A DNA stretch of 64,000 nucleotides. It comes from Candidatus Thiodiazotropha endoloripes (lineage in GTDB: Bacteria; Pseudomonadota; Gammaproteobacteria; Chromatiales; Chromatiaceae). Below are positions 24,445-38,948 of this stretch, one piece after another. The DNA is taken from assembly GCF_001708965.1 (NCBI RefSeq), contig NZ_LVJW01000007.1:1-64000 (forward strand). The letters are read 5' to 3'. Both the position numbers and the translations under genes were made by a program. The notes below the pieces were generated by a model. It was given only the letters and a program-made list of their open reading frames with translations, was not told the origin of the DNA and ran no database searches. Every line of letters starts with the position of its first letter. Position 1 is the stretch's first letter.

Positions 24445-24520
24445 GTCCCCATCGTCTAGAGGCCTAGGACACTGGCCTTTCACGCCGGTAACAGGGGTTC
24501 GACTCCCCTTGGGGACGCCA
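24445..24520 (+). tRNA. tRNA-Glu (TTC anticodon)
   Basis: A 76-base cloverleaf with encoded CCA end: acceptor GTCCCCA pairs with TGGGGAC, T-loop GGTTCGACTCC, and anticodon loop CTTTCAC giving anticodon TTC. It is complete on this side of the element, and its 3' 48 bases plus one flanking base recur at 38900-38948, marking it as the integration target. Confidence 0.95.
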
Positions 24521-24521
24521 T
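24473..24521 (+). repeat. att repeat, tRNA side
   Basis: A 49-base perfect direct repeat with 38900-38948, covering the anticodon-stem to CCA part of tRNA-Glu plus one base. This is the typical core of a tRNA-targeting tyrosine-integrase element. Confidence 0.93.
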
Positions 24522-24637
24522 AAATATCAATGACTTAGGGTATTTACTGGCTCCTTCTTAGTTTCTTCTGAAGAATTTCTGAACATTTGATTTTGGGTGG
24601 TAGTTATTGCTTACCCTCCTTTCAAGATAGGGATTTT

Positions 24638-25351
24638 ATGAAGGCAGATCAATCTATAATCTTATCTCTCATTACCTTCTTTGTCGGTATATTATTCGGA
24701 AGCATCTTTCTTACTGGTTATCTTGAAATCACACCAGAAGCATTTTATCCAGCTTTAACAACTCTGGTGGCGGCCTTTTTGGGTGCCTATACAGCCTACT
24801 CACTACAAAATGAAAAAGAGAAGAGAAAAGAAGAGAGGCATAATCTCACGCAAGCGAATGAAGTCTTACAGGCTATAAAAGATCATATTGCAATACTCAG
24901 TATATTTAATGAACAAAGTATTGCTCCTTTCCGTAAGCATCCCTATAGGTATTTGGCTATATTGCCACTTGGATTCGAATTAAAGCCAAATCTAGAAATA
25001 GATGTATCAAAACTAAGTTTTTTATGGCAAAAAGGCGATGTTGTAGCTACAGATAAAGTATGTAGTGCGAAATTTGGTTTTACTATGGCTCTGGATCATA
25101 TAAACAGGCGATCTCAATTTTATAATAGCGATATTCAGCCAGCTTTCGACTCATCTGATCTCCGTCATGATGGAAAGATAGATGCTACTAAGGCCAAAGA
25201 AACCCTAGGTGAACGCAGATACAAAAAAATTGTCGATCATACTAATAACATGATTGATGCTGTTGATACTACTATCCAATCGCTTTTTGATGCTAGAGAT
25301 GAGCTACGTACAGAAATAAATAAAATGTATCCACATGGAACAGCGCTTTAA
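24638..25351 (+). CDS. element cargo: two-TM protein with coiled-coil cytosolic part
   Basis: About 237 residues: two membrane helices at about 5-27 and 36-57, then a charged coiled-coil (QNEKEKRKEERHNLTQANEV) and a polar C-terminal domain of about 150 residues with no known motif. I use ATG 24638, preceded by GATAGGGA, rather than upstream codons. It is the first gene inside the element next to the tRNA and runs opposite to the structural block, a usual place for cargo. The layout resembles uncharacterised membrane proteins of phages and defence islands, but I cannot assign a role. Confidence 0.7.
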   Translation: MKADQSIILSLITFFVGILFGSIFLTGYLEITPEAFYPALTTLVAAFLGAYTAYSLQNEKEKRKEERHNLTQANEVLQAIKDHIAILSIFNEQSIAPFRKHPYRYLAILPLGFELKPNLEIDVSKLSFLWQKGDVVATDKVCSAKFGFTMALDHINRRSQFYNSDIQPAFDSSDLRHDGKIDATKAKETLGERRYKKIVDHTNNMIDAVDTTIQSLFDARDELRTEINKMYPHGTAL

Positions 25352-25413
25352 CAGAATTACAGTGGATTTGTTTTTTGTTATAATTACATCAGTAACAGGG
25401 AAGAGGGATTGGA

Positions 25414-25797
25414 ATGTTTAAAGCTATCATTATCGCATCACTCATTTTTCTTTTCGGTTGTACTCCCACTAGTTCTACTGTCGTTATGCTAGATGATTCA
25501 GTTATTTATCCAGTATCTGCCAAAACTGAAATTCTCTTCGAACCACCGGATCGTAAATATAAGCAGATAGCCATGATTGAGACTAAAGGAGGAGGCAATA
25601 CTGACTTACCTACTATTTTGGAAGGTATGAGAAGTGAGGCGATGAAAGTTGGTGCTGATGCTGTGATGCCTACAGAAGATGCTAGTCGAACCACACCAAA
25701 ATCCGTTATTTATAATCCTTGGCTTGGCGGCTACCAGACATTAGGCGGGATCAATATACCGAAACTCCGAGGAATAGCGATCAAGTATACCGATTAA
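25414..25797 (+). CDS. element cargo: small lipoprotein
   Basis: A 127-residue protein with a lipoprotein signal (MFKAIIIASLIFLFGC, lipobox LFGC, Cys16). The mature part contains KQIAMIETKGGGN and MRSEAMKVGADAVMP, similar in style to small outer-membrane or periplasmic lipoproteins of the YajI/DUF4156 kind, where a conserved GADAV segment is common. GAGGGA lies upstream of the ATG. It follows the membrane protein by 62 bases and precedes the zinc-knuckle gene by 11 bases, so the three are probably co-transcribed. Surface exclusion is one possible role; there is no direct evidence. Confidence 0.7.
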   Translation: MFKAIIIASLIFLFGCTPTSSTVVMLDDSVIYPVSAKTEILFEPPDRKYKQIAMIETKGGGNTDLPTILEGMRSEAMKVGADAVMPTEDASRTTPKSVIYNPWLGGYQTLGGINIPKLRGIAIKYTD

Positions 25798-25808
25798 TGG
25801 GAAGTACC

Positions 25809-26060
25809 ATGGACCTCAAGAAAGACCTACCCGTAGCCATTTGTACAAGATGTAATGCTGTAACAACAAATATTACTCTTGCTAATCAGCGATGTGGGCA
25901 AAGGTATGATGGGAAGCGCTGTAAAGGTGTCTATCAAAGTGCCATATGCGAAAATGATTGGGATGAGTGCCCTATCTGTAATGCAACAGGTCGAGTAAAT
26001 GGTGAAAAATGTCATCGATGTAATGGAGAGGGATGGATCTTTGTAAGAAAAAGTCCCTGA
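25809..26060 (+). CDS. element cargo: cysteine-rich zinc-knuckle protein
   Basis: An 83-residue protein with ten cysteines. CTRC begins the N-terminal part; the C-terminal part holds two motifs close to the DnaJ zinc centre (CPICNATGRV and CHRCNGEGW). It probably binds two zinc ions and acts in protein or nucleic-acid binding. ATG 25809 has GGGAAG just upstream; an earlier ATG at 25797 would overlap the lipoprotein stop. A bidirectional terminator follows. Confidence 0.65.
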   Translation: MDLKKDLPVAICTRCNAVTTNITLANQRCGQRYDGKRCKGVYQSAICENDWDECPICNATGRVNGEKCHRCNGEGWIFVRKSP

Positions 26061-26087
26061 GTAGATAACATTATATGGGCACATATA

Positions 26088-26112
26088 AGGCCCCACGAAG
26101 GGGCCTATTTTC
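26088..26112. terminator. bidirectional terminator between convergent element genes
   Basis: A 7-bp stem AGGCCCC / GGGGCCT with loop ACGAA and a following ATTTTCTC. It lies between the rightward cargo genes and the leftward structural operon. Confidence 0.75.
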
Positions 26113-26131
26113 TCTCAGCAAGGGGTAGGTA

Positions 26132-26443
26132 TTACTCTGAGGTGATCTCGTCTAATTCACCCGTTTTATGGGCCTTCCCGGCCTGTTTCTGGGCCTTCAT
26201 TAACTTCCTATGAAGCCTTAGTAGTTCCTGAAAAGCCTCATTACACTTATCGGCTTGTTCTCTACATTGGTACATCATTGAATTAAGGCTATTACCATCA
26301 AGCTGATCAAGGCTGTCGTCAGTGTTCATGGTCATGGTAAAAAGCAGATCAGCTAGACCGTGAATGAATCCATCAGCGATGCTGAATTGGCCCTCAAGTT
26401 CTCTAATTTTGCTGAATTCTTCAGAAATGGCCTGTGTATTCAT
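26132..26443 (-). CDS. element protein, helical, 103 residues
   Basis: A polar helical protein, last gene of the leftward block. The C-terminal half is basic (LHRKLMKAQKQAGKAHK) and ends acidic. The middle contains GFIHGLADLLF and MYQCREQADKC. Its start overlaps the upstream stop by 4 bases (ATGA), so the two are translationally coupled. No family recognised. Confidence 0.65.
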   Translation of the reverse strand: MNTQAISEEFSKIRELEGQFSIADGFIHGLADLLFTMTMNTDDSLDQLDGNSLNSMMYQCREQADKCNEAFQELLRLHRKLMKAQKQAGKAHKTGELDEITSE

Positions 26444-26661
26444 GACTCCACCTCATCAGTTTCCTTGATATTAATAGCTATCTCTGCGAGCTCCCCTATC
26501 TCTTGGGCTAAGCTACTAACAAATTGAGGAGCTAGAAGCTTTTCATTTCCATAGTCAACATTAGTGCTCATTGAAAGCAAGGCACTCATATCTTTGATTG
26601 CGAACAGAAGCTGTTCACGTAGATCTGCTGGGCTGGTTTTAATAATGGTTGCAGTGGCCAT
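26440..26661 (-). CDS. element protein, helical, 73 residues
   Basis: A small protein starting MATATIIKTSPADLREQL and containing two helical segments and an acidic C-terminus. A strong ribosome site (AGGAGG, 26667-26672) lies 5 bases before the ATG and overlaps the stop of the open frame at 26671. Overlaps the next gene by 4 bases. Its amino-terminal style recurs among small phage proteins, but I assign no function. Confidence 0.7.
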   Translation of the reverse strand: MATATIIKTSPADLREQLLFAIKDMSALLSMSTNVDYGNEKLLAPQFVSSLAQEIGELAEIAINIKETDEVES

Positions 26662-26671
26662 GATGACCTCC

Positions 26672-26685
26672 TATCGTTTAGTAGT
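26672..26685. repeat. 14-bp direct repeat, copy 1
   Basis: TATCGTTTAGTAGT, identical to 26847-26860. This copy lies directly upstream of the 73-residue gene, next to its ribosome site. Confidence 0.7.
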
Positions 26686-26810
26686 CGCCACCAGATAAGG
26701 GTGACGGGACTCAACTACCGCGATAAGGCGGCTGGACTTATTTCCCGAAGGTCTTGTATTCGGTCCTATCATCCCGTCATAGGAAATCGTAACGCCTGAG
26801 AAACAGGCAC

Positions 26811-26838
26811 AAAAAAACCGCAGGTCTGACGGGTGCGG
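26811..26838 (-). terminator. candidate terminator within the leftward block
   Basis: On the minus strand CCGCA and TGCGG can pair (5 bp, 11-base loop), followed by seven T. A second hairpin (GCCTG/CAGGC at 26794-26808) follows. This would separate the ejection-like genes from the two small downstream genes, or attenuate transcription into them. Confidence 0.5.
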
Positions 26839-26846
26839 AATCCGCT

Positions 26847-26860
26847 TATCGTTTAGTAGT
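26847..26860. repeat. 14-bp direct repeat, copy 2
   Basis: Identical to 26672-26685, 175 bases away, just after the end of the 332-residue gene. The pair brackets the terminator and the stop-free frame. Confidence 0.7.
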
Positions 26861-26897
26861 ACCTCGAATACTACACCATAACTTGGTAAACTGCTAT

Positions 26898-27896
26898 CTA
26901 ATCTTCACTCAATAACAGCCCCGCAATTGCACCAATTGCTGCTCCCAAATAACCACCAGTCTGACCGCCCATAGCCGCCCCAGCAGACGCTCCAGACATT
27001 GCGCCGCCTGCCATGCTTCCTATAGCTGAAGTGGTACCTGTGGTCATGGTTTCAGAATTAGTCCCACCTGGCGCACCCCATACTAGCTGAGCATATCGAT
27101 TCAGATTGTTCCACGGTTGCTGTGTTTGGTAATTGTAACGGTTGACTGCGTCTTGAATCTCAGTCTGTTGCTCATTCCTATAGAAGTCACCTGCCTCTAG
27201 GGGAACACCTGCAAAACCTAATTGAGATTGACCAAATGCCGGAACCTGGCCGAATAGTGAAGAAGCCGTATTCATACGGGAAGCATCCGCAATAGCGCCT
27301 TGAGAATAAAGATCCACAGCTTGATCTACACCCTGTGAGGCTCTGTTCTGAGCATTGGTATAGGCCCCTAGATACATATTCGACAGATTGTCTTGTAGCT
27401 GAGCATTTGCATTACTTCTTAAAATACCCTCAGCGACACCGTGACGACTTGATCCACTCTGCCCCATTAACGCCGCTGCCTGATCATTTTGCCCAACCTG
27501 AGAGTCAACCGACCTGTTGGTTTGATTAATCATGGCTTCTGCTGCCTGATTATACGGCACTAAGTTAACCTCGCCAGATAGTGCTTGTCTGAGGCTATTC
27601 GATGGATCTACTGTGGGTGATTGACTATGGGCTGCTTGTAGCCCCGCCATGGTCGCCAGATTATAAACATTCTGCCCCGCCGCATTTGTCATCTGTCCGT
27701 ATTGATCAGACACATTCATGCGATCTGAAAAGCCCCTGTCATGGAGTGCGTTACTCCTTGCAAAAGTTTCACCAGGATAATAGGGAATGTCTTCCTGTGC
27801 TAACGCTTGTGATTGGGCAAATATGTCCTCAATGTAGGGCATTTGTTCGTCATAAGGTTCTGCGCTCTGAATTGTGTTTCTGCCGCCGCTTCCCAT
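26898..27896 (-). CDS. podovirus-like internal virion / DNA-ejection protein, glycine zipper
   Basis: A 332-residue protein. The N-terminal half contains PYIEDIFAQSQALAQ and IPYYPGETFA, a pattern I associate with internal or tail-associated proteins of podoviruses. The middle is Gln/Asn/Ala-rich and helical. The C-terminus is a glycine zipper (GSMAGGAMSGASAGAAMGG, then GAAIGAIAGLLL), which usually marks membrane insertion. It ends the main structural block. The assignment as an ejection-type protein is inference from architecture and position. Confidence 0.6.
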   Translation of the reverse strand: MGSGGRNTIQSAEPYDEQMPYIEDIFAQSQALAQEDIPYYPGETFARSNALHDRGFSDRMNVSDQYGQMTNAAGQNVYNLATMAGLQAAHSQSPTVDPSNSLRQALSGEVNLVPYNQAAEAMINQTNRSVDSQVGQNDQAAALMGQSGSSRHGVAEGILRSNANAQLQDNLSNMYLGAYTNAQNRASQGVDQAVDLYSQGAIADASRMNTASSLFGQVPAFGQSQLGFAGVPLEAGDFYRNEQQTEIQDAVNRYNYQTQQPWNNLNRYAQLVWGAPGGTNSETMTTGTTSAIGSMAGGAMSGASAGAAMGGQTGGYLGAAIGAIAGLLLSED

Positions 27897-27905
27897 GTCT
27901 TTCTC

Positions 27906-28658
27906 CTAATATCCGAAATATGAATCATCAACGCCAGAACCTGGATTGAACCCGGCTTGTCTGCGCGATCTTTGCCAATCACTCAAGTTGTACATCCTTC
28001 TTAAGTAAGTATCGTTACCTATGGCATTGAGGAATTGATCAATAGACATTTGTGAAATGTCTGGCGCTCCAGCATCCCCCCAAGGGTTCAACGCCGTTCC
28101 TTCCCCTGGTGGTAATGGTAGAAGGCTATTTGATTCACCCTCTGTTGGTGGAACGGCTGGTACTGGCGTAGGTTGCACTAGCTGATCCCTGAGCGGGGTT
28201 GGTCCTGATGGAAGACCAGCACCAGAGCCATTCAATCCGCCAAATTCCGCTGACGGTGCCCCGATTGTCATATTAGGATTATGGCTGGTTGTAACCGTAC
28301 CAGGGGGCCGCCATCTGTTTTGTAGGTCGTCTTCTTCATATGATCCATAGCCGCCACCATGACCACCAATTAATGATGCCAATGCTCCAGTTATTTGCTG
28401 AAGTGTTGGCCTGGGCCTTGGTTGTGATAAAGGCCCTTGTGTCCGATTAATGGGAGGGCCAAAATCGTTGTTAGGCGCAGGAATATACCCAGGCTGGACA
28501 GTAGCATGGTGGATGCCCTGCGCTCTGCCCGATGTAGAGCTTAATGGCCCTACTGCAGGACTAGGACCAAAGCCCGCATCATGATTTACCTGGATAGTTG
28601 GATTATAGGTCGGGTTGTATGTACTCGCCGCAATCCCGTGTTGTGTTGATCCGCCCAT
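27906..28658 (-). CDS. Pro/Gly-rich element protein
   Basis: A 250-residue low-complexity protein rich in Pro, Gly, Asn and Ser (GPLSSTSGR, PPINRTQGPLSQPRPRPTL) that ends in a more structured helical tail (MSIDQFLNAIGNDTYLRRMYNLS). It has no membrane segment. It lies between two ejection-like proteins and may be a flexible virion component. An AAGG lies upstream of the ATG, overlapping the end of the 40-residue frame. No family recognised. Confidence 0.6.
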   Translation of the reverse strand: MGGSTQHGIAASTYNPTYNPTIQVNHDAGFGPSPAVGPLSSTSGRAQGIHHATVQPGYIPAPNNDFGPPINRTQGPLSQPRPRPTLQQITGALASLIGGHGGGYGSYEEDDLQNRWRPPGTVTTSHNPNMTIGAPSAEFGGLNGSGAGLPSGPTPLRDQLVQPTPVPAVPPTEGESNSLLPLPPGEGTALNPWGDAGAPDISQMSIDQFLNAIGNDTYLRRMYNLSDWQRSRRQAGFNPGSGVDDSYFGY

Positions 28659-28669
28659 AGTTGTTACCT

Positions 28670-28792
28670 TTAGCTTTTGTCCTTCAGATATACGTATCTT
28701 GTTTTTTTAGAGTTAATACTTGGCTTATAAACAAGGATTTTCTCTTCCTTGTTCGCCCGCAATCTCTTAACAATGACACCCACAAGAATCAC
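28670..28792 (-). CDS. possible 40-residue basic protein
   Basis: A short frame tiles exactly between the 188-residue and 250-residue genes. The GTG start shares a base with the upstream stop codon, and the TAA sits next to the downstream ribosome site. The product has a hydrophobic start (MILVGVIV) followed by a strongly basic stretch (KRLRANKEEK, SKKTRYVYLK). A hairpin (AACAAGGA/TCCTTGTT) falls inside it. Tiling and composition suggest a real gene, but it is too short to be sure. Confidence 0.45.
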   Translation of the reverse strand: MILVGVIVKRLRANKEEKILVYKPSINSKKTRYVYLKDKS

Positions 28793-29358
28793 TAGGCTGC
28801 CTGTGATTCGTTTGCTCTGTCTAGTTTGGCCTCAATCAGCGCCTTTTCTCTCTCTGCCTGGCGTTCAATGTCTGTCATGTCAACATCGAATCGTTTGCAC
28901 CCTTTCACAACTTTATCAATACTGAGCAAGTATTTCTTGAGATTTCTTATGTAATCATTCATAACCTGAGTTTTGACATAAGATTTATGGAATAAAAGCT
29001 CATTCTTTTCTTGCTTTCTCATCCGTTCATCATAATCATTCAAGCGCTTAACAGTGTTGGTAGCAAAATGCATGATCTCCTCACTCATTCGAGTGGCATG
29101 ATCGTACGCTACCCGTGCGTTTTTATGTTGTGCTTCCAGGTTATCGAGTGCCTTTTTTTCTTTGGGATCTGTGAACACACAAGATAGATCCTCTTTATTC
29201 CTCTCAATTGCCTGAGAAGCTATGATTTGTTTAGCATTCAAATCCCAGTTTTGCTTCGCTTCTAAGTACTTGTTTATGATGTCCTCGGCATCTGATTCCA
29301 TCGCTCGGTAATCATATAGCGACTTCATGAGCTCATCTTTGATTACTTGGTCTAACAT
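28792..29358 (-). CDS. coiled-coil element protein
   Basis: A 188-residue, charged, almost entirely helical protein with heptad-like Lys/Glu/Leu spacing and no membrane segment or export signal. Starts 2 bases after the 629-residue gene, so it belongs to the same translational block. In podovirus modules such proteins sit among the internal or assembly proteins; no specific family is recognised. Confidence 0.65.
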   Translation of the reverse strand: MLDQVIKDELMKSLYDYRAMESDAEDIINKYLEAKQNWDLNAKQIIASQAIERNKEDLSCVFTDPKEKKALDNLEAQHKNARVAYDHATRMSEEIMHFATNTVKRLNDYDERMRKQEKNELLFHKSYVKTQVMNDYIRNLKKYLLSIDKVVKGCKRFDVDMTDIERQAEREKALIEAKLDRANESQAA

Positions 29359-29360
29359 AT

Positions 29361-31250
29361 TTACTCCACATTCCCGATTAATACGCCAACAGCCGCACCT
29401 AGAGCGTTATAAAACTGCTTTTCTCTTGGGCTGATGTCTTTAAGTAGTTTTACTTGCGTCCTCAATTTCATCATGCCTTGAGGATCTGTCATGATTCTGG
29501 CGAGGTTTTCCGAGTACTTGCCTAGCTTCATGTCTTGATACCATTCCGCCACCTTAGAGGGGATTCTGTGCGGTGATATTGCATTACTCATCGCAGGAGT
29601 TGCCTCACGCCTTAACTCCTTGATCATCTCAGTACGTTGTGCTGTCATGGATTGACCTTTCATTGCTCGGCCTGTGGCTTCAAGTACGTCTGATAGATCC
29701 ATTAAAGCTTGGTACTGCTGTTTATTTAGGGCGTTCTTCAGCATTCGCTGTTTAGACTGTGTTCCCATCAGTCGCTTACGGAATACACCACCTAAATTGG
29801 CGGCTTCACCCACTGAGCTCTCTGCCATTTCCTCTAGTGTGTTTTGAATATGCCCCCTGACGACCCCATTCCATGCCTTGGGGTCGTGAGCTGTAATAAT
29901 CCTTTTGGCTTGTTTTATAGCAGCCGGGCTTGAACGTCTGCCAAATAGGATCTTGCCTAGATTTGGTGCGGCCTGGCTGCCTTCTCGGATCATGTCACCG
30001 ACTAAGGAGTTATCCAGTTCATTAATGGGTAAACTGCGCTCCTCGAATATCTGCCTACCTGTTCGATAGGTAGGCGAAGCCTGATCCATTGCGGAAACAA
30101 GTTCCTGCTTGAATGCGGTCAATTCCCTTAAACGGGTTTTTCTACCATCTCGTTTTGCCTTAGCTATCAGATCGTCCAAGTCACCCTTTACAGCATCTAT
30201 CTGCCCAATCAGGTTCTTAGGCTGCTCTCCATTCTTCAAGGCTTTCTCAATCTGGGTTAATGTTTTACCGACCTTAGTACCTGAAAACTTGTTGATCGAT
30301 ACTTTGAGACTGTCTAATACATGACTGATGTCCACCTGATCATTTGCCGCATCCTGATAATAAGGGCTTGAGGCTTTCATTCTTGACTGCTCTAGCGCCT
30401 CTCTGGCTCCTTCTGCCGCATTTACGCCCTTCTTGTAGGCAAAGTGCGGGGTCTGTTCAGGAGAGAGCTTTTCTAGATACTGATAGACGCCCCTCTGTAC
30501 CTGCTTATTTCTCAGTTTCAGGAAATCCTCAACAATGTCGGCACTGTCCGGTAAATCCCTCAAGAGTGCTTGTCGGTTAATGAGTGATCGTAGGTTAGTG
30601 ATCTCAGCAGGGGTTAGCGTGATTCCAGCCTCATTTGCTTTTCGGCTCAACTGGTTCGCTGCAACTTCATCAAACCTCGATATATCCTTAACCGCTTTCC
30701 GGCTTAGTGCTCGACCTAACAATTGACCGGCCCCTTCACCTGCCGCTGCTAATCCGCCCTCAATCGCCATAGACTTGAGGTTTCCTGTTGGGGTTTGAGG
30801 TTCATCATAAGCTAGATTGGCGTGTATCTTCCTTGAACTCTCTCCTGAAGCACCACCTAACGCAGCGCCTAACAAGCCACCAACTGGCCCACCTGTAACA
30901 GTACCCAGAATTGCACCACCAGCCGATCCAAGCAGACTTTCACCATGCGCAAGCGTACTGGCCCCAAACTGCTTTGCGCCTTGCCAGAATCCGTTAGGTT
31001 CCTCTAGATACCATTTGCCATCATTACCTAGATACGCAATGCCCTCAGGAGTCTGTCTGTATCTCTGTGTGCGTTGCTGCTCACTTAAGTTAGGGAAACG
31101 GTTTTCAGCGAGAATACGCATTCTCGTACCAGGATCATCAGCTCGGTAAGCTTCTGCTAGGTCAAGAAACTCTGCCCCTCGATCAGAGTCCGATACCGGC
31201 TTGATCTGTTGGGGTGCGGTGCCAAGTACCGCTGATGCAAATTTACCCAT
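29361..31250 (-). CDS. large internal virion-like protein with glycine zipper
   Basis: A 629-residue protein. Residues about 108-136 form a long glycine zipper (GSAGGAILGTVTGGPVGG...), and the C-terminus has another short hydrophobic Gly/Ala segment (GAAVGVLIG). Between them is a long helical, charged region. This architecture matches podovirus DNA-ejection proteins that leave the capsid and form a channel across the cell envelope. The start overlaps the preceding stop by one base (TAATG). It carries no lysozyme-like motif that I can see. Confidence 0.65.
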   Translation of the reverse strand: MGKFASAVLGTAPQQIKPVSDSDRGAEFLDLAEAYRADDPGTRMRILAENRFPNLSEQQRTQRYRQTPEGIAYLGNDGKWYLEEPNGFWQGAKQFGASTLAHGESLLGSAGGAILGTVTGGPVGGLLGAALGGASGESSRKIHANLAYDEPQTPTGNLKSMAIEGGLAAAGEGAGQLLGRALSRKAVKDISRFDEVAANQLSRKANEAGITLTPAEITNLRSLINRQALLRDLPDSADIVEDFLKLRNKQVQRGVYQYLEKLSPEQTPHFAYKKGVNAAEGAREALEQSRMKASSPYYQDAANDQVDISHVLDSLKVSINKFSGTKVGKTLTQIEKALKNGEQPKNLIGQIDAVKGDLDDLIAKAKRDGRKTRLRELTAFKQELVSAMDQASPTYRTGRQIFEERSLPINELDNSLVGDMIREGSQAAPNLGKILFGRRSSPAAIKQAKRIITAHDPKAWNGVVRGHIQNTLEEMAESSVGEAANLGGVFRKRLMGTQSKQRMLKNALNKQQYQALMDLSDVLEATGRAMKGQSMTAQRTEMIKELRREATPAMSNAISPHRIPSKVAEWYQDMKLGKYSENLARIMTDPQGMMKLRTQVKLLKDISPREKQFYNALGAAVGVLIGNVE

Positions 31251-32215
31251 TACAACCCAAACTCCCTTCTTACCTGCTCTATAGCCCGTCTTTCAGCTTC
31301 TTTCGCGCTCATCCCTTGTTTAAGGAATTGAGCCTCTATTTCAGCTCCACGTTTATCAATCAGACCTCCCATGTTGTTCAATGGAATGTTCTGCCACTTC
31401 AATCCGTGTGTTTGCGCGTACTGATAGCGCATAGCGGCCTTCCTTAATTCGGAAGTAACCGCTTCGAGTTTTGCCTGAAACTCAGTAGGGGAGTCTCCAT
31501 CGAATACACCCAAACCAGGGTTAGGCATGGCGGCTGTGAGTCGCTTGCTTTCCTGTTCGGTAACCGTTGCCCCACTGGCCTCCTTGATTGTGGCATTTAG
31601 ATTAGTAATTGCGTGTGTCTTGAAGGTCGCCATTTCGGAAAGCTCTTTTTGCTCCTGTGGGGTAGTACCAAAACCAGCCTTCTCTTTGGTCGATGTCCAG
31701 GCTGCTCCAGCCCTGGTTGAGAACCTCTGAAAATCAGGTTTAAACGCTTGCTCTATGGCGTTTAAACGCTCTAATTGTTCCATGACATTAAACTGTTTTT
31801 CCTGTACCTTGTTTCTATTGGTATTGGTCAGTTCCAGGGGCCTACCTTGCGCAAACTGTACCCCACCATCAGGACCGACATTCAATTGCATACCAGCATT
31901 AGGATTCCATCTCGGACCCTCTGAAATGGTTACCCATTCCCCTCTGAGCGTGTCCCACTGCTTCATTACTCGCTTGTCGCCCTCAATGAACTCACGTACC
32001 AAGGGTTTAGAGGTACTGGGTTGATTCATGCGGTGTTTTGACTCATTAATCTTTGCTTGAGCCAATTGCCGATTAATATCGTTGTTTTGGAATCGTGCTG
32101 CCAGATTCAATCCGGTTAGCAGTCCGTCCCGATTGCCTCCTGAACCCAGTAAGCCCATTCCCATCAGGAACATGGGATTTGACAATAGACCATTAATTTT
32201 TGAATTGTCTGTCAT
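31250..32215 (-). CDS. podovirus-like DNA-ejection / internal protein
   Basis: A 321-residue protein. The N-terminus is Gly/Leu/Met-rich (MFLMGMGLLGSGG) and could insert in a membrane. The C-terminal half contains NATIKEASGATVTEQESKRL and PTEFQAKLEAVTSELR, a pattern I associate with internal head proteins of podoviruses. Helical throughout, with 13 bases between the terminase stop and this start. Together with the next gene it makes up the element's ejection-like module. No portal or capsid signature is present in it. Confidence 0.65.
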   Translation of the reverse strand: MTDNSKINGLLSNPMFLMGMGLLGSGGNRDGLLTGLNLAARFQNNDINRQLAQAKINESKHRMNQPSTSKPLVREFIEGDKRVMKQWDTLRGEWVTISEGPRWNPNAGMQLNVGPDGGVQFAQGRPLELTNTNRNKVQEKQFNVMEQLERLNAIEQAFKPDFQRFSTRAGAAWTSTKEKAGFGTTPQEQKELSEMATFKTHAITNLNATIKEASGATVTEQESKRLTAAMPNPGLGVFDGDSPTEFQAKLEAVTSELRKAAMRYQYAQTHGLKWQNIPLNNMGGLIDKRGAEIEAQFLKQGMSAKEAERRAIEQVRREFGL

Positions 32216-32228: not shown

Positions 32229-33608
32229 TTAACTTAAACCAATACCTGGATATATAAGAGGTTCACTCCAGTTTGTCCGTCTTTTACTCTTGATCAAAGC
32301 TCGACCTTCACCGGCACCGACCATGAGATACTGTCCCGCCTCACAGATATGGGAGAACATGCCTTTATCGGGTACATCCCTGTATCGCTCATCCCCTGAT
32401 ACCTGAATGCGTTTATAACAGTAACCACCTGACATCCCCTTGCGGGCATTGATACAACCCGGAGACATCAATAGACCTGGCTTACCATCAACCATGGTAG
32501 TCAGTGCCTTAGCAACAGACTCTCGCCTCAATATGAAATCATTGGTCGGGGCTGGCTCTGCTGGAATACCGTTCGCGTTCAATATCTCGAATGGGGTTGT
32601 TTCATCGGTTTGCGCTCTCTGATCACCCGCTGGATCACCATATATTCTGAACTCATACCCTTGGTACTTATCTCTTAGTACGCGCCCTAACTCTTCAGAA
32701 AACCTCAAGGCCCCCATGTCCTTTGAAACTACTTCTTCTAACCAAATCCAGCGGCCATCACCCAGACGTTGAGCAATCATGGCCGCTGGCGTTAGACCAA
32801 AATCAATCCCGATATAAATTGGCTCATCTTCTACCGGACTGAGGTCTTCAGTGGCTATATGAACCTGATCATTGAATTCGGGATAGACTGCCTTACCATC
32901 TGAGATAAAGCCGTATTTCCCTTTAACATAGACATCTATCCATTGCTGGTTTTTGCCTTGCATCAATCGGCCATAATAACTGGTTGGGAGGTTTGCAATA
33001 TTCTCCGCATCCTTGCCGATACCTGATGGTTGTTTGTAGATACTCCAGCCTTTTGGCCGCTCTTCCTCAAAAAGCTTGTACCACCAGTGGTCTACATCAG
33101 GTGGGTTTGTATCCAGTATTACTCCCGACCAAGTAGCGCCGCCGTTTTTCATTGCAGGGTATCTGCCTACGCGACCCTGGAGCATGTCTATAACAGCCCT
33201 AGGGATCTCCTTAGCCTCATTCACCCAAGCCCCTGTTAACTCCAGCGACAACAGCTTTTTTGCATCTTCAGGGCGGTCTAAGGCTCTAAATAAGAACTCA
33301 GCATCCATAGTCCTGGTCTTAATATGAAAGGACATGTTTTGTTGATTCCAGTCACCAATTCTATCGTCTATCCAGTCAAAAAATGTCCTTACAGAAGTAT
33401 CATTAAGCTCTCTATAGACGTTACGGATAATCGCCCATCGTGTCCTTCTTACACCATCCTCTCCTGGTTTCTGTTCGTTCGCTCTCCTGAATAGCTCACT
33501 CACCATCGCTGAGCTCTTGCCACTCCCAATTGGCCCCATAACCCCACGCATGAAGTCATCAGACTTATGGAACTGGCTTAGCGTTGGAGTAGCGATATAG
33601 TCAACCAT
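32229..33608 (-). CDS. terminase large subunit
   Basis: About 459 residues from MVDYIATP. The ATPase part has Walker A GPIGSGKS (25-32), a Walker B-like strand ELTGAWVNEAKEI (123-135) and a coupling segment LDTNPP (165-170). The nuclease part has YIGIDFGLTPA (Asp269) and YGDPAGDQR (Asp325), the acidic residues of the RNase H-like fold. It packages DNA into a prohead through a portal. The frame is open to 33680, but the start at 33608 overlaps the TerS stop by 8 bases. No portal gene follows, where phages normally have one. Confidence 0.93.
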   Translation of the reverse strand: MVDYIATPTLSQFHKSDDFMRGVMGPIGSGKSSAMVSELFRRANEQKPGEDGVRRTRWAIIRNVYRELNDTSVRTFFDWIDDRIGDWNQQNMSFHIKTRTMDAEFLFRALDRPEDAKKLLSLELTGAWVNEAKEIPRAVIDMLQGRVGRYPAMKNGGATWSGVILDTNPPDVDHWWYKLFEEERPKGWSIYKQPSGIGKDAENIANLPTSYYGRLMQGKNQQWIDVYVKGKYGFISDGKAVYPEFNDQVHIATEDLSPVEDEPIYIGIDFGLTPAAMIAQRLGDGRWIWLEEVVSKDMGALRFSEELGRVLRDKYQGYEFRIYGDPAGDQRAQTDETTPFEILNANGIPAEPAPTNDFILRRESVAKALTTMVDGKPGLLMSPGCINARKGMSGGYCYKRIQVSGDERYRDVPDKGMFSHICEAGQYLMVGAGEGRALIKSKRRTNWSEPLIYPGIGLS

Positions 33609-33870
33609 CAAAACCCATCCTGAAGATAAACGGCTCACCACTACCCTGTGACAGTTCCACAGCTTTCTTCTTAGGCTCAATGTATTGCGCTACTTCCTTG
33701 TGTGCCTGAAATCTAAGTTCTTTCGGTAGTTTCTCATCATTAGCAATTTCCGCCATAGCTATTACAGGATGATATCCAGGCCACTTACCCTCCAAGGCAT
33801 CCAATAAGGGCTGCTTGTCCTTATTCGGAGTACCTTTCTGCCTACCACCGGTTTTAACGCCTTTTGCCAT
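33601..33870 (-). CDS. terminase small subunit-like DNA-binding protein
   Basis: An 89-residue protein starting with a basic GGRQKGTPNKDKQ tract, seen in many podovirus small terminases, then two helices (HPVIAMAEIANDE, RFQAHKEVAQYIEPKKKAVE). It overlaps the large subunit by 8 bases. It would recognise the packaging site of the element. It is short compared with many small terminases, but typical for this type. Confidence 0.75.
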   Translation of the reverse strand: MAKGVKTGGRQKGTPNKDKQPLLDALEGKWPGYHPVIAMAEIANDEKLPKELRFQAHKEVAQYIEPKKKAVELSQGSGEPFIFRMGFDG

Positions 33871-34706: not shown

Positions 34707-34776
34707 GTGTCGTCTCCTGTTTGCCTACAATAATTAGACAACAGGTTTTTTTTAGGCCGCACATGGGATAGCCGTC

Positions 34777-35199
34777 TTAAGTCACGATCCGTAAGTAAAA
34801 ACGTTTGCCTTTGGGTAGCTGACCGCCACCGGCCTTTATCGCAGCCGCAATTCGAAGTTCATACTCATCAGCATTTTCATCTACGGCATAACCCTCTAAC
34901 TTCGTCTTCATGAATTCTTCTATATCGTACATGAGAATAGCGACACGCTCTTGAATTTCATAATGTGGTGATAACATCGCAAACGCATCACGAAGGTATC
35001 GATCTCTCAGAGCTAATTGAGCTTTAGTTCGGGCATTCCGGCCTTTTCCACCAGCCAGACCTAATAACTCATCGAGTCTCTCACCTGTCTCTAGATGAAC
35101 CAGAAACGCATCAGATACCCACTCCTCAACCTCGTCGGGTAATGGGTAACCCGACAGGTTGGCCTCTCTTGCTAGTAGCAGTAGGTCTTCAGGACTCAA
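34777..35199 (-). CDS. element protein, helical, 140 residues
   Basis: A helical protein with an acidic N-terminus (PLPDEVEEWVSDAFLVHLETGERLDELLGLAGGKG). The N-terminal motif and GRNARTKAQLALRDRYLRDA resemble uncharacterised small proteins from proteobacterial prophages. Overlaps the preceding gene by 4 bases. Function unknown; it may be a regulator of the late block. Confidence 0.65.
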   Translation of the reverse strand: MSPEDLLLLAREANLSGYPLPDEVEEWVSDAFLVHLETGERLDELLGLAGGKGRNARTKAQLALRDRYLRDAFAMLSPHYEIQERVAILMYDIEEFMKTKLEGYAVDENADEYELRIAAAIKAGGGQLPKGKRFYLRIVT

Positions 35200-35480
35200 T
35201 GCTTATCCTCCTGAAATTCAGTCTCCAAAAGCCTCTGTCCTTCTATAATTATTGCCTGGCGTACCTTACGTATGCCTGTAATAGCATCCGCGAAATACGC
35301 GAGTATTCGCTCAGTCTCCTGTAGCTGGTCTTCAGGGTAATCCCTGCCTGTCTTCTCTATCGCGCCTTCCATCACCCGGTAAACTTGCTCAAGTTGCTGC
35401 AAGTGGTGTCCCAGTGGCTGAGTTGTCCAAATGAAACTCTGGGCCAGTTCTTCTTTGCTGTATTCATTAACATCAGACAT
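35196..35480 (-). CDS. element protein, helical, 94 residues
   Basis: From MSDVNEYSKEEL about 94 residues, helical and acidic. I use ATG 35480 because TAGGAGG lies 9 bases upstream; the frame is open to 35582 and overlaps an iteron-like repeat, which argues against the longer form. No family recognised. Confidence 0.65.
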   Translation of the reverse strand: MSDVNEYSKEELAQSFIWTTQPLGHHLQQLEQVYRVMEGAIEKTGRDYPEDQLQETERILAYFADAITGIRKVRQAIIIEGQRLLETEFQEDKH

Positions 35481-35557
35481 CTTTAAAAACCTCCTACCTG
35501 TGGTAGATATATAAAGCAGTACACATACGGACCTCAAAACAACGAAAAATGGTGCTG

Positions 35558-35648
35558 ATTGGTACTCATACGGGGTAATCATTCAGCTAGCCTGTTGAAA
35601 TATCCGATAATTGGTACTCATTGGGGGCACATTGGTACTTATTGGGGG
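35558..35648. promoter_or_regulatory. iteron-like repeats, possible element origin
   Basis: Three copies of an 18-bp unit in the same orientation: ATTGGTACTCATACGGGG (35558-35575), ATTGGTACTCATTGGGGG (35610-35627) and ATTGGTACTTATTGGGGG (35631-35648). The last two are 21 bp apart, two helical turns, and lie in the 3' end of the replication-like gene. This is how phage and plasmid origins are often embedded next to or inside the initiator gene. Confidence 0.6.
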
Positions 35649-36045
35649 TAGCGAATCTGTTTTTCTTCCAGCTATTGAGCGCTGTAACGGTTGGTTGTAC
35701 GTCTAACTTGCCTTTGCACTCATCAATAGCTCTGAAGGTGATCGCGTAAAGCGAAGGCTTATGTTTACCGCCCTGCCGGGTTAGTACGAGGAATCCTCTT
35801 TCAAGAAGACCTTTTATGGCTCTGTAGAGTGTTCCCTTAGACTTCCAGCCCTTGGTTTTCATCATGCTCCACGCAACGCATAGATCACCGTTATTACTGC
35901 CGTTGTATTGAACAGTAAGATCTATTAACAGTTTCACTTCATGAGCGGTAAGCACAGCATATGCCGAGGATTCGAGAACCTGTTTTGGTATGGCAACGAA
36001 CGGACCGCTTTCTTTACGACCCCTTGCCTTTTGGCGTGAAGGCAT
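35587..36045 (-). CDS. helix-turn-helix replication-like protein
   Basis: A 152-residue protein. After a basic N-terminus (MPSRQKARGRKES) comes FVAIPKQVLESSAYAVLTAHEVKLL and a winged-helix-like stretch (MKTKGWKSKGTLYRAIKGLLERGF). The family is common in prophages and plasmids and is often called replication or helix-turn-helix protein. The C-terminal tail encodes PNKYQCAPNEYQ, and this DNA is the iteron pair. It may bind these repeats as an initiator; that is inference. No helicase or primase accompanies it. Confidence 0.65.
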   Translation of the reverse strand: MPSRQKARGRKESGPFVAIPKQVLESSAYAVLTAHEVKLLIDLTVQYNGSNNGDLCVAWSMMKTKGWKSKGTLYRAIKGLLERGFLVLTRQGGKHKPSLYAITFRAIDECKGKLDVQPTVTALNSWKKNRFATPNKYQCAPNEYQLSDISTG

Positions 36046-36239
36046 TAGTAACCCTCACTAGTTTGCCTAACCTCATAGAGGGGACAGGCCGGGGAGGTGC
36101 AATTCTCCACCTGTTTTCGCCATGTTCCGGGCTGGTAAGGGTCATATATACACTCAGCACATTTAGCGTTTATTTTGCCACTTAAACCGGCCTTACCGGC
36201 CTCTCTGGCAATGACTGCTGAACTGTGGTCTGTTTCCAT
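36045..36239 (-). CDS. small zinc-binding phage protein
   Basis: A 64-residue protein with four cysteines in CAECIYDPYQPGTW and CTSPACPLYEVR. This zinc-knuckle arrangement is a recurrent small phage family in proteobacterial prophages, of unknown function. It overlaps the next gene by one base on each side, so it belongs to the early leftward block. Confidence 0.7.
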   Translation of the reverse strand: METDHSSAVIAREAGKAGLSGKINAKCAECIYDPYQPGTWRKQVENCTSPACPLYEVRQTSEGY

Positions 36240-36577
36240 TAGACACCCCCCAGCATCCGATTAACTTTCGGATGCTCTGAAGTGTCAATCCAGTAACGGC
36301 AAACCCGAACAGGTTTTCCCTGATAACCAGGCACCTTTTCAAAAGCCCTGTTGACAATAATGCCTTTGCCCTGAAGGGCGGCGGCGGTCGTGTGCAAACA
36401 CCAGTCATGGAGTTCGCGAGCCGCTTCAAAACGATTGTATGAGCGCCTCATCAGAGCAATGGCTACTTTGCCTTCTTTCGTCTTATGGGAAAGTTTGCTA
36501 TCTTTACTCTCGATTGCTGCCACGCAATTTACGCCCTGGATGCCCCGTTGCTCCGGGGCGTTTACTTTTGTATTCAT
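36239..36577 (-). CDS. element protein of 112 residues
   Basis: A basic protein of 112 residues containing MRRSYNRFEAARELHDWCLHT and a C-terminal RYWIDTSEHPKVNRML. Its place between the AlpA-like regulator and the zinc-knuckle gene suggests an early regulatory or replication accessory role, but no family is recognised. Confidence 0.6.
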   Translation of the reverse strand: MNTKVNAPEQRGIQGVNCVAAIESKDSKLSHKTKEGKVAIALMRRSYNRFEAARELHDWCLHTTAAALQGKGIIVNRAFEKVPGYQGKPVRVCRYWIDTSEHPKVNRMLGGV

Positions 36578-36586
36578 GTGAACCCC

Positions 36587-36775
36587 CTAAGCCGTCTTAT
36601 CCATGACAGGCTGACTTTCCAGCCATTTCTGAAGGGTAGACTCCAGCCAGCCAGGACGGCCTAAGATATTTTGTGGGGACGGGAATTCACCAGCGCGTAC
36701 CTTGCGCCAGATTGTGGTACGGTCTCCGAAACCTTTTTCTTTAAGGTCTGAGTAACGATTAATTGAATCAACCAT
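36587..36775 (-). CDS. AlpA-like transcriptional regulator / excisionase
   Basis: A 62-residue winged-helix protein with the pattern of the AlpA/MerR-like excisionase family (GFGDRTTIWRKVRAGEFPSPQ followed by GRPGWLESTLQKWLE). AlpA proteins in P4-like and PICI-type satellites activate or derepress the element and assist excision. It heads the leftward operon and faces the rightward gene at 36847 across a 70-bp gap likely to hold both promoters. Confidence 0.8.
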   Translation of the reverse strand: MVDSINRYSDLKEKGFGDRTTIWRKVRAGEFPSPQNILGRPGWLESTLQKWLESQPVMDKTA

Positions 36776-36846
36776 GTTGCACTCTCTGTTTGTTACGTGA
36801 TTACGACGATTCGCAACCTTCTGAGAGCTAGTTAATCATCACAGAT

Positions 36847-37116
36847 TTGGATATGAGAGGGTATTTACTAGGGCCTAAAAATCCCCCCTCCCGTTGCCTG
36901 AAAGTCTCGGAAAGGGTGGCGATTCTGGATGCGATAGATAAAAAGTCTCTTGGTGACAATCAACACAATGGGTCGGAAAAAATTCCGACCCTCTCTCAAG
37001 CCGCTCAAAAAGCCGGATTCGGAAACGAAAAGACAGCCCGCCAAGCCACAAAAGTAGTCCATGAAGGAGCGCCGGAACTCATAGAAGCGGGTAACGATTC
37101 TTTCTATAAAATATGA
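36847..37116 (+). CDS. possible divergent helix-turn-helix regulator
   Basis: An 89-residue frame whose C-terminal part (TLSQAAQKAGFGNEKTARQATKVVHEGAPELIEAG) looks like the helix-turn-helix segment of ParB/phage regulators, where a similar EGAPELIEA motif follows the recognition helix. The N-terminus is poorly conserved and there is no clear ribosome site (TTG 36847 or ATG 36853 are possible starts). It is the only rightward gene in the right half of the element and could be its repressor. Overlaps the end of the 176-residue gene by 13 bases. Confidence 0.5.
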   Translation: MDMRGYLLGPKNPPSRCLKVSERVAILDAIDKKSLGDNQHNGSEKIPTLSQAAQKAGFGNEKTARQATKVVHEGAPELIEAGNDSFYKI

Positions 37117-37634
37117 CGACCAGTAACTTCTCTGTATTGTGGGATTAATATCTCTAGTTTTTCTTTGGTAGATTCTTTTATCTTCCAAAACGATTTTCTT
37201 TTAGAGAATATTTTTCTAACAGTATCTACATCATTGTAGCCATACATATCCGCAACATGCTCATATGCTCCTTTGTCTTTAGTAGAGGATTTATACCTAC
37301 CTAATTGCAAAAAAGCATACTGAATCTCTAAGCACAATAAGTGCTTCTTGAGTAACTCTTTGTACTTATTCTTTGGCATCAAGTTTTTTATATTAAAGGC
37401 TCGATCAATGTCCTTGCCGCCGTGATTCTTTCCGTATGATGATACTATTAATGCTTTACCTATATAACTATTTAAGGGCTCTGGAATTAGTTGTTTATGT
37501 TGAAGATAAATAGCTGCTTCAGCCATCAGTACCTTTGCAGCCTCTACGCTCCCATCCTGTGCCAATTCAATCCAATATTGATGGTTTTCAGGACTGGCCT
37601 CATCCAGTTCTAAAGAAGTAAATCTAGTAGTCAT
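37104..37634 (-). CDS. hypothetical protein next to the integrase
   Basis: A 176-residue soluble helical protein. Opening residues resemble a Sel1-like repeat start (WIELAQDGSVEAAKVLMAEAA), followed by a longer helical domain with VADMYGYNDVDTVRKIFSKRKSFW, perhaps a helix-turn-helix near the C-terminus. Its start overlaps the integrase stop by 4 bases (ATGA), so the two are coupled. It may modulate integration or be a regulator; unproven. Confidence 0.65.
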   Translation of the reverse strand: MTTRFTSLELDEASPENHQYWIELAQDGSVEAAKVLMAEAAIYLQHKQLIPEPLNSYIGKALIVSSYGKNHGGKDIDRAFNIKNLMPKNKYKELLKKHLLCLEIQYAFLQLGRYKSSTKDKGAYEHVADMYGYNDVDTVRKIFSKRKSFWKIKESTKEKLEILIPQYREVTGRHIL

Positions 37635-38764
37635 GATTTAACATTCCCCAATAAAACCCGGTTCATCATCCTGCGACGGTCAGTCGCCATAAACTTGCCA
37701 TAGTGCTTTTCCAGCATCCTGATACTGGTTCCACAATTCTCTGCGACCACCTGGGCAGGGATTCCGGCCAACAGCGCTTTTGATATGTGGTAGTGCCGGA
37801 TTGAGTAGAAAACGGTCTCCTTGGGTAGCTTTGCAGCCTTGACGGCCTCTTTCATGGGGCGGTGTTGGTGAGACTTTCCCCATGGCATACCATCATCCCT
37901 AACCAATAGATAGGCATCTGGTAATCGTTCTTTACTGATTTTCTTAAGAAAGGCTATAGCTTCATCCGATAGGTAGCTATCCCTTTTTCCTGTCTTACCC
38001 ACTAGCCGTAGGGTGCCATGGGCTGTGTCAAAGTCGCGAACTTTAACAGAGGCTAACTCCCCGTACCTAGCTCCGGTGAGGATTGCTGCCCTGATCAGGT
38101 TGTGGAATCCGTCTTTTGTATGAGTGAGGAGGTTATTTATCTGTTTGTCCGTCAGGAACAGTTTTCGGCTCTCTCCTACATCACGGAAAGATTGGACGAT
38201 TTTCCATGCCCGGTCAGAATCCACCAACCCGTTTCTATAGGCTAGATTGAAGGCAGCTTTAGCAACAGAAAGGATACGATTTGTATTGTCTTTTGATCGC
38301 CTGACATCTTCCTCATCATCGGAAACTCGGACTAGCCCGTCTCTCCACTGCTTGAGCTGGGCCGGAGTGAGTTTGCCCAACTCATATTTCTTGAACTTTG
38401 GAATAAGATGCTTGTATAGGCGCTGTTTGACAGACGTAGAAGATTTCTCTCCATTTTCAACTTTCAAATGAGAAACATAATCATCTACGGCTTGCTGGAC
38501 GGTATAGCTGGTATCTTTGACTAGATTCTTCTTTTTGAACCAAGCAAGGGCTAGTTTGAGCATCTCCTCATATTCTGAGTCGATCTCACCTCCGAGTTTC
38601 TCATAGTCCTGGGTGCCAGTAATCGAGATCCGGGCATGCCAGGTTCCACCATTTGGGCCTCGATAGAACCCGATGAACTGACCTTTAACTATCCGCTCCC
38701 AGTACGGCCATGTCCTAGGAGCAAGTTTCCTGCGTTTGGTGAGTGTGTCTATTTTGCTAGCCAT
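37631..38764 (-). CDS. tyrosine recombinase / integrase
   Basis: A 377-residue protein. An N-terminal arm/SAM-like domain (about 85-200, including VQQAVDDYVSHLKVENG) precedes the catalytic domain. Expected residues are visible: Arg233 in LTGARYGEL, Arg323 in FYSIRHYHIS, and the nucleophile Tyr355 in LEKHYGKF. The usual HxxR histidine is replaced by Tyr320. It lies 136 bp from the right att repeat, at the end distal to the intact tRNA gene. It should catalyse integration at tRNA-Glu. Confidence 0.93.
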   Translation of the reverse strand: MASKIDTLTKRRKLAPRTWPYWERIVKGQFIGFYRGPNGGTWHARISITGTQDYEKLGGEIDSEYEEMLKLALAWFKKKNLVKDTSYTVQQAVDDYVSHLKVENGEKSSTSVKQRLYKHLIPKFKKYELGKLTPAQLKQWRDGLVRVSDDEEDVRRSKDNTNRILSVAKAAFNLAYRNGLVDSDRAWKIVQSFRDVGESRKLFLTDKQINNLLTHTKDGFHNLIRAAILTGARYGELASVKVRDFDTAHGTLRLVGKTGKRDSYLSDEAIAFLKKISKERLPDAYLLVRDDGMPWGKSHQHRPMKEAVKAAKLPKETVFYSIRHYHISKALLAGIPAQVVAENCGTSIRMLEKHYGKFMATDRRRMMNRVLLGNVKS

Positions 38765-38899
38765 AAAACTTCAGATCTGAAAAAATTCTGAAAAATCGAA
38801 CTGAAACCGCCTGTAATATAATGAAACATTATACTACTAAAATAGAATAAAAACAGTTAGTTAATGAAATAGAGTGCAACAGGCTGAAACGGTAAATAT

Positions 38900-38948
38900 T
38901 GGCCTTTCACGCCGGTAACAGGGGTTCGACTCCCCTTGGGGACGCCAT
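38900..38948 (+). repeat. att repeat, integrase side
   Basis: 49 bases identical to 24473-24521. Only the 3' part of tRNA-Glu is present, so this is the second att site and not a second tRNA gene. Confidence 0.93.

Follow-up and report, generated by a model that had tools for sequence, protein, structure and literature searches.

A probable phage satellite in Candidatus Thiodiazotropha endoloripes that carries its own terminase, scaffold, and ejection-type genes without a recognised portal or major capsid gene

Phage-inducible chromosomal islands (PICIs) are known to rely on the large terminase subunit (TerL) of a helper phage, and P4-like satellites carry an AlpA-type regulator. The CpmB protein of SaPI1 and the helper scaffold compete for the coat protein, giving T=4 shells (PMC5644958), and the phage-inducible chromosomal minimalist islands (PICMIs) of the Vibrionaceae have a reduced gene content without capsid-remodelling genes (PMC10803314). 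The closest precedent for the element described here is EcCIMP1, a tRNA-integrated, 19,963-bp Escherichia coli PICI of phage Kapi1; it is functional, its region having earlier been taken for part of a defective prophage, and it shows that such elements can work (PMC11773190). Here we describe a 14.4-kb element in a 64,000-nucleotide stretch of Candidatus Thiodiazotropha endoloripes DNA (RefSeq assembly GCF_001708965.1, contig NZ_LVJW01000007.1, positions 1 to 64,000; referred to as the window). With a probability of about three in four, we read it as an integrative phage satellite of a podovirus-type helper that brings its own terminase, scaffold, and ejection proteins and borrows the rest.

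Two 49-nt repeats, 100% identical and spaced 14,427 bp apart, mark the ends of the element (24473-24521 and 38900-38948), the left copy being the 3' part of a tRNA-Glu(ttc) gene at 24445-24520. The empty site is present in two congeners (L142 in genome G012 and L143 in genome G008), where the left and right flanks overlap in a single repeat copy. These observations bear out the attachment (att) repeat pair at tRNA-Glu proposed in an initial annotation made from the sequence alone. The intact, dense genes that it described were likewise found, with open frames and tight spacing. Its statement that all coding space is assigned was too strong, since the coding share between the repeats is 90% and gaps of 334 nt and 328 nt begin at 25798 and 36776, the latter including most of an 89-amino-acid (aa) open reading frame (ORF) on the opposite strand. 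The GC content per kb is 0.39-0.49 inside the element, about 0.49-0.57 in the left flank (six kb before the element), and 0.47-0.48 in the right flank; it is thus lower than that of the left flank but similar to that of the right.

Read from the right end, the genes encode an integrase, a 176-aa protein, the AlpA-like protein, a set of small early proteins, a 140-aa protein, the scaffold, a candidate small terminase subunit (TerS), and TerL. They are followed by genes for the 321-aa and 629-aa proteins, two unnamed late proteins, the 332-aa ejection protein, and two small proteins, and at the left end candidate lipoprotein and membrane protein genes lie on the opposite strand (Table 1). The family matches agree with the calls of an integrase, a terminase pair, a scaffold-like protein, and an AlpA-like regulator in the initial annotation, though the Pfam AlpA match of the last is under the cut-off and the named matches of the TerS candidate are weak. 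For TerL, the ATG start at 33608 was preferred over the TTG at 33680, and the protein is 47 to 49% identical to the TerL proteins of phages Ss1, VA-RY-3, and BcepC6B. The annotated portal is the next gene after TerL in Ss1 and VA-RY-3, and a "head-tail adaptor" lies two genes on in BcepC6B. When a profile was built from the TerS candidate, it matched 11 ORFs beyond the satellite loci, of which 9 immediately precede a TerL gene (some contigs are duplicated).

The ejection-like proteins that had also been reported find support in the family match of the 332-aa protein and in two late-gene homologues in podovirus MW202691. There, the 321/629-aa pair matches adjacent genes for 383- and 691-aa proteins, which sit after a phrog_598 "DNA ejection" gene and before the tail spike (E values against MW202691 [L019] and viral contig L192 were computed on a small sequence set). 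A weak tape-measure match of the 629-aa protein (phrog_167, 3e-4) is the sole match of the element to a tail family. L192 encodes a scaffold and a major capsid protein (MCP) and, downstream, weak homologues of the 332- and 321-aa proteins together with an 894-aa protein, which gave no match to the 629-aa protein. This layout implies that one phage can combine these parts with a coat gene of its own.

Family scans of the window proteins (PHROGs and Pfam) recognised no portal, major capsid, or lysis gene. With filters off, seven portal and MCP profiles were run against 82 ORF products from three elements (that of the window and the two relatives described below) and their flanks; the best value was 0.0085, for an ejection protein of the relative in G007, whereas the positive control, full phage L236, scored 2e-202 for its portal and 8e-109 for its MCP. 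The earlier claim that no frame fits a portal or major capsid is upheld by these values. Among the functionally unnamed late proteins, the 321- and 629-aa products are the only ones judged large enough for an MCP or portal, and their homologues come from MW202691, a phage whose own portal and coat gene are annotated. The locus combines traits of phage satellites in general, namely, an integrative element with att sites and the lack of part of the virion genes. Like PICIs, it encodes an integrase with an AlpA or Stl regulator (phrog_1 and phrog_66, with AlpA under the Pfam cut-off), but it has its own TerL instead of relying on that of the helper. The major capsid, portal, and connectors that define a capsid-forming PICI were not found, nor were the portal and major capsid of a complete podovirus prophage. 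The presence of a scaffold and TerL and a host in the genus of a clam-symbiont genome set it apart from PICMIs.

The search for genomes with the same gene order that the initial annotation had suggested yielded a related element in congener G007 (L004/L136), which shares the order from the 112-aa gene through the 332-aa ejection gene. The G007 integrase also belongs to phrog_1, yet it does not match the window integrase at 1e-3, and the integration site is different. A 56-nt, 75% repeat 13,727 bp apart suggests an element of ~13.7 kb with an uncertain boundary, and the window genome lacks this element, the corresponding flanks lying 217 bp apart. Ratios of nonsynonymous to synonymous differences (pN/pS) between the window and G007 elements are 0.10 (152-aa protein), 0.13 (629 aa), 0.14 (TerL), 0.18 (TerS), 0.24 (332 aa), 0.26 (321 aa), 0.36 (128 and 188 aa), 0.39 (64 aa), 0.42 (140 aa and scaffold), 0.46 (250 aa), and 0.70 (112 aa), all rough values given an overall pS of 0.75, near saturation. 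The substitution pattern in these alignments is conservative.

The other relative, L235, comes from a different gammaproteobacterial family (G170) and lies between 53-nt identical repeats at tRNA-Val, spaced 13,564 bp apart. It encodes a related integrase (2.8e-69), a replication initiator, a DnaC-like loader, a 140-aa-type protein (1.3e-11), and a 268-aa scaffold (phrog_3927, 8.9e-14), and its TerL is of a different family (phrog_38, 4.3e-50). Its 686-aa protein gave four matches in total: an "ejection protein" of Pseudanabaena phage Pan3 (2e-25), a "putative injection protein" of Rhizobium phage RHph_Y1_10 (1e-20), and two hypothetical proteins; a virome search with it returned no relative. 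Neither a portal nor an MCP was recognised in L235 among ten products scanned with PHROGs and ten with Pfam. Across the elements, then, the terminase type varies, genes for scaffold, motor, and ejection proteins reappear, and a shell is lacking in every case. That two relatives lack the same parts suggests, by sequence comparison, that the element is a functional parasite of viruses and not a decayed virus.

We compared this arrangement with viral loci from IMG/VR, near-identical contigs being kept. In 85 TerL loci (the best 80 of 588 matches plus L006-L011), a recognised portal lay within 6.5 kb downstream in 64 and an ORF of at least 450 aa within 4 kb in 14; a further 6 loci end within 2.5 kb, and 1 (L078) has neither portal nor large ORF. 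Among the best 80 of 86 scaffold matches, an MCP lay within 2.5 kb in 76 loci, the other 4 ending within 225 bp, and a portal was found upstream in 71. TerL followed within 2 kb downstream in none, so that the order of the window element, with the scaffold before TerS and TerL, was found in 0 of these 80 loci.

The two packaging genes also appear to differ in origin. In a 110-row TerL tree, the window and G007 satellites cluster as one supported branch inside a part of 44 rows (SH-aLRT of 85, inner order unresolved), and the group containing Ss1 is separate (35 rows, SH-aLRT of 97). Portal types on the satellite side (39 loci) were 14 B, 12 M, 6 P22, 1 Ss1, and 6 with none seen, compared with 25 Ss1, 4 B, 2 M, and 1 with none seen on the Ss1 side (32 loci); not counted were, in the first part, the two satellites, L005, and both G300 rows and, in the second, three duplicate rows. 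Since the TerL groups with mostly non-Ss1 portal types while, in almost every contig seen, the phrog_3927 scaffold family adjoins capsids of the Ss1 type (phrog_1328), the comparison suggests that the element is a chimera with TerL and scaffold from different phage lineages, not a prophage with a hole. Given a quick tree in which both groups are mixed, this argument lends support without being proof.

The scaffold is also unusual in length. The satellite scaffolds have 271 aa (window), 301 aa (G007; 278 from the ATG at L004:8936), and 268 aa (L235), whereas 86 complete phage ORFs, measured by a longest-start rule, span 286 to 404 aa with a median of 361, 85 of them being longer than 301 aa. 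Relative to Ss1 and VA-RY-3, all three satellite scaffolds lack an N-terminal part and a middle block, and the C-terminal end is divergent; part of the N terminus is also absent from Lyrsu02 and L008. We regard the short scaffold, to which the initial annotation gave too little weight, as a candidate size-setting part. Because SaPI1 CpmB competes with the helper scaffold and yields T=4 shells, the shortened scaffold may, by analogy, shrink the shell; the element, at 14.4 kb, is 0.34 of the 42.2-kb Ss1 genome.

A satellite bringing terminase and ejection proteins and borrowing shell, tail, and lysis, as the initial annotation had proposed, remains the best fit to the att sites with their empty counterparts, the lack of a recognised portal and MCP, and the related elements. 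We infer the helper and dependence on it, as well as induction, particle formation, and transfer. Growth of the helper phage would lead AlpA and the integrase to excise the element, which would then replicate. The element's terminase would dock on helper portals and load satellite DNA, and the shortened scaffold would mix with or displace the helper scaffold, probably giving a smaller shell suited to about 14 kb, approximately one third of 40-42 kb. Once built into the particle, the satellite ejection proteins would bring the DNA into the next cell, with coat, portal, tail, and lysis provided by the helper.

Several observations weigh against this reading. No role could be assigned to the 188- and 250-aa late proteins, and AlphaFold models of the 629- and 321-aa proteins, built from 4- and 3-row alignments, reached a mean confidence (pLDDT) of 49, with nothing under an E value of 0.6 in Foldseek searches of the PDB; these models were not used as evidence. 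No helper prophage came to light: the Ss1-type portal and MCP were each found in 0 of 93 genomes and phrog_1328 in 0 of 22 congeners, in searches without a working positive control that establish nothing firm. The satellite query P0008 had no match in IMG/VR, where no virome contig with the satellite was found; a virome search with alignment A1 retrieved 3 distant relatives. The type is also rare in the genomes searched (counts include the genome of the window): a TerL match occurs in 3 of 190 genomes, one a fragment (G082), and the 629-aa protein in 2 of 379 and, in another set, only in the window's own genome among 398. A TerL profile matched in 4 of 369 genomes and a scaffold profile in 3, the other two being L235 and full phage L236. 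As for L235, its match to the 321-aa protein is weak (3.6e-4, with filters off), and neither AlpA nor TerS was recognised in it. The window and G007 elements may share one origin, giving two independent cases instead of three, and the near-saturated pS between them makes the pN/pS values rough. Finally, three element lengths (3 x 14.4 = 43.3 kb) also suit a full-size head, so size leaves a small shell unproven.

These points must be set against what other explanations would require. If the element were a decaying, immobile prophage that had lost its portal, capsid, and tail genes by deletion, one could account for the phage relatives of those late genes that have known kin, for L192 and L236, phages in which scaffold, MCP, and late internal genes are clustered, and for a probable scar with relatives of the 73- and 103-aa genes at the same tRNA in G016. 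We nonetheless consider this unlikely: the genes are open and tightly spaced, a congener lacks the same parts and shows conservative substitutions, a third element lacks them beside another terminase, and TerL and scaffold seem to stem from different phage lineages. A scaffold-TerS-TerL order unseen in the 80 viral scaffold loci also argues that the locus did not arise simply by deletion.

Less probable still is a phage-interference island that is not itself carried over in particles and whose scaffold, terminase, and ejection proteins disrupt assembly in incoming phages. Competing assembly parts would indeed disturb a helper, and satellites typically interfere with helper replication (PMC10690885). 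However, a full terminase and ejection set would seem to exceed what interference needs, the att sites, integrase, and empty sites point to mobility at some time, and a PADLOC scan of 10 element proteins gave no defence family match. That the locus is a complete small phage with a portal and capsid too divergent to recognise strikes us as very improbable. Although several late proteins are without a functional family name and the structure models are too poor to exclude such folds, the 321- and 629-aa homologues belong to MW202691, for which a portal and a coat gene are annotated, and the remaining unnamed late proteins are at most 250 aa, one being of low complexity. In addition, the seven portal and MCP profiles gave nothing convincing, no lysis gene was recognised, and the tail is limited to the weak tape-measure match.

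Beyond the satellite reading of this one locus, we tentatively raise, at somewhat less than even odds, a recurrent class of convergently assembled satellites that replace everything that touches DNA: a terminase of any family, a short podovirus scaffold that sets size, and ejection proteins of their own, with coat, portal, tail, and lysis coming from the helper. If so, self-supplied packaging and injection could permit the use of several helpers with nothing but a coat type in common. L139 (G010:C18:46000-64500, 1596-16500), a different element of ~14.8 kb in the same tRNA-Glu of a congener, would then represent one more answer to this problem. Its integrase is 62% identical, and it encodes an HTH_17 regulator, an HTH_36 protein, DnaB, and an FRG-domain protein, together with a tape measure protein of 757 aa and a Mu-type portal of 688 aa that is fused to a Mu F-like domain; a Pfam scan of 10 of its proteins recognised neither a terminase nor a capsid.

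Two further loci, L135 (G300) and L005 (SAR324), were considered as members and set aside: both have TerL without an adjoining recognised portal, but no scaffold or ejection gene was seen in either, and both stretches are incomplete. L135 (G300:C53:284000-296581, 2818-11552) encodes an AlpA-like protein, a topoisomerase-type protein, an initiator, DnaB, a TerL of the window family, and a Sir2 protein, with no recognised portal beside TerL, where the contig ends.

Table 1. Features of the element, in window coordinates
Feature	Position	Strand	Evidence
attL	24473..24521	+	3' part of tRNA-Glu(ttc); empty site in L142 and L143
254-aa candidate membrane protein, possible accessory gene	24587..25351	+	Hydrophobic N-terminal stretch; phrog_21267 1.3e-7 (unnamed family)
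127-aa candidate lipoprotein, possible accessory gene	25414..25797	+	Signal-like N terminus with Cys in translation; without family match
103-aa protein	26132..26443	-	Short homologue at tRNA-Glu of G016, 4.4e-10
73-aa protein	26440..26661	-	Short homologue at tRNA-Glu of G016, 3.1e-21
332-aa DNA ejection protein	26898..27896	-	phrog_4287 "DNA ejection protein" 1.4e-12; phrog_7477 1.2e-15; Lyrsu02 particle protein 3.2e-8
250-aa Pro/Gly/Asn-rich late protein	27906..28658	-	Homologue in G007 element only, among loci compared
188-aa late protein	28792..29358	-	Homologue in G007 element only, among loci compared
629-aa large internal/ejection protein, glycine-rich stretch	29361..31250	-	MW202691 (L019) 691-aa homologue 1.8e-37; phrog_5880 8e-12
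321-aa ejection-module protein	31250..32215	-	MW202691 (L019) 383-aa homologue 4.2e-16; L192 387-aa homologue 1.2e-7
TerL, 459 aa from ATG	32229..33608	-	phrog_2 2.9e-29; PF04466 2.3e-7
TerS candidate, 89 aa	33601..33870	-	phrog_641 0.05; phrog_8771 3e-9 (function-unknown family)
Scaffolding protein, 271 aa	33891..34706	-	phrog_3927 3.3e-28
140-aa protein, common to all three elements	34777..35199	-	L004 50%; L235 1.3e-11
128-aa protein	35196..35582	-	Homologue in L004
152-aa protein, possible replication initiator	35587..36045	-	phrog_678 0.0015, phrog_186 0.0019; L004 90% identity
64-aa cysteine-containing early protein	36045..36239	-	L004 80% identity over 55 aa
112-aa early protein	36239..36577	-	L004 homologue, 35% identity, same place
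AlpA-like excisionase/regulator, 62 aa	36587..36775	-	phrog_66 7.8e-6; Pfam AlpA 0.018, under cut-off
176-aa protein after integrase	37104..37634	-	Sole match phrog_27213 0.0034
Tyrosine integrase, 377 aa	37631..38764	-	phrog_1 1.7e-42; PF00589 1.8e-13; L235 homologue 2.8e-69
attR	38900..38948	+	Identical 49-nt copy

Outside the packaging and late genes, the replication module of the window element comes down to one weak replication-initiator match (0.0015), whereas L235 has an initiator and a DnaC-like loader. The 64-aa early protein has a homologue upstream of TerL in viral contig L024. Beside the AlpA-like gene and against the main gene direction, the 89-aa ORF at 36847-37116 (+) gave a weak ParB-like match (0.0069) and is a possible regulator. 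An NCBIfam scan produced matches that were all under the curated cut-offs.

Some features of the relatives are also worth recording. The values of pS between the window (35196-36239) and L136 are 0.45-0.56 in the 64-, 152-, and 128-aa early genes, compared with 0.70-0.94 in the other ten; this lower divergence suggests that the early module was recently exchanged between the two elements. In place of the window 73- and 103-aa genes, G007 has two genes (L004, 16850-17317 and 17314-17595, +) with weak antirepressor-like (phrog_245, 1.7e-4) and repressor-like (phrog_3, 1.3e-5) matches. At the ends of the G007 element (L136, about 3350-3998 and 17075-17723), an apparent ~650-bp imperfect duplication touches the integrase gene; it was read from overlapping matches to one G010 stretch. 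L144 (G016:C14) carries short homologues of the 73- and 103-aa genes at 17200-17610 near tRNA-Glu with one att copy only and is probably the scar of an older related element.

The satellites described in the papers cited here mostly borrow TerL or build a head along with TerL. If our reading is correct, a satellite that supplies motor, scaffold, and injection proteins itself but lacks a shell would mean that virions can also be divided at a different point. Injection proteins would become testable as a target of piracy, and the short scaffolds would be natural variants with which to study how capsid size is set. The reading also predicts a podovirus that infects this symbiont group; among the papers listed by a search on these symbionts, none on their phages was seen. 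Searches of the open-licence PMC literature, outside which most subscription papers fall, yielded no described class that combines terminase, scaffold, and ejection proteins without a shell; this agrees with the initial annotation, which was aware of none, and falls short of showing absence from print.

Among the known systems, EcCIMP1 shares an integrase and AlpA with the window element and has three genes somewhat similar to those for DNA-transfer and head-morphogenesis proteins, but neither a terminase nor a capsid-morphogenesis gene is identifiable in it, and it has a primase/helicase (PMC11773190). SaPI-type PICIs likewise bring their own packaging specificity and a competing scaffold that gives small shells; the portions seen name TerS but no TerL or ejection set of their own (PMC5644958, PMC10690885), and CpmB, at about 72 residues, is much smaller than the window scaffold (PMC5644958). 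P4-like satellites also control size through a scaffold-based protein, Sid, although P4 is packaged by the P2 terminase while the element has its own TerL, and Sid is reportedly without sequence homologues whereas the window scaffold is kin to phage scaffolds (PMC10690885, PMC11389934). No match named Sid or Psu appeared in the PHROGs or Pfam scans, no direct comparison having been made. Pseudomonas PhiAH14b resembles the element in size (16.8 kb, about one third of the helper genome) and in its integrase, AlpA-like, and lipoprotein genes, but its authors found no terminase in it and propose trimers in full-size heads (PMC4936722). Capsid-forming PICIs have their own TerS and TerL, as here, but make capsid, portal, and connectors and borrow tails, whereas capsid and portal were not recognised in the window element (PMC10690885, PMC13230959). 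Podoviruses Ss1, VA-RY-3, Lyrsu02, and MW202691, in turn, share homologous TerL, scaffold, or ejection genes with the element and differ from it as full phages with an annotated portal, plus capsid and tail genes where the stretch was seen.

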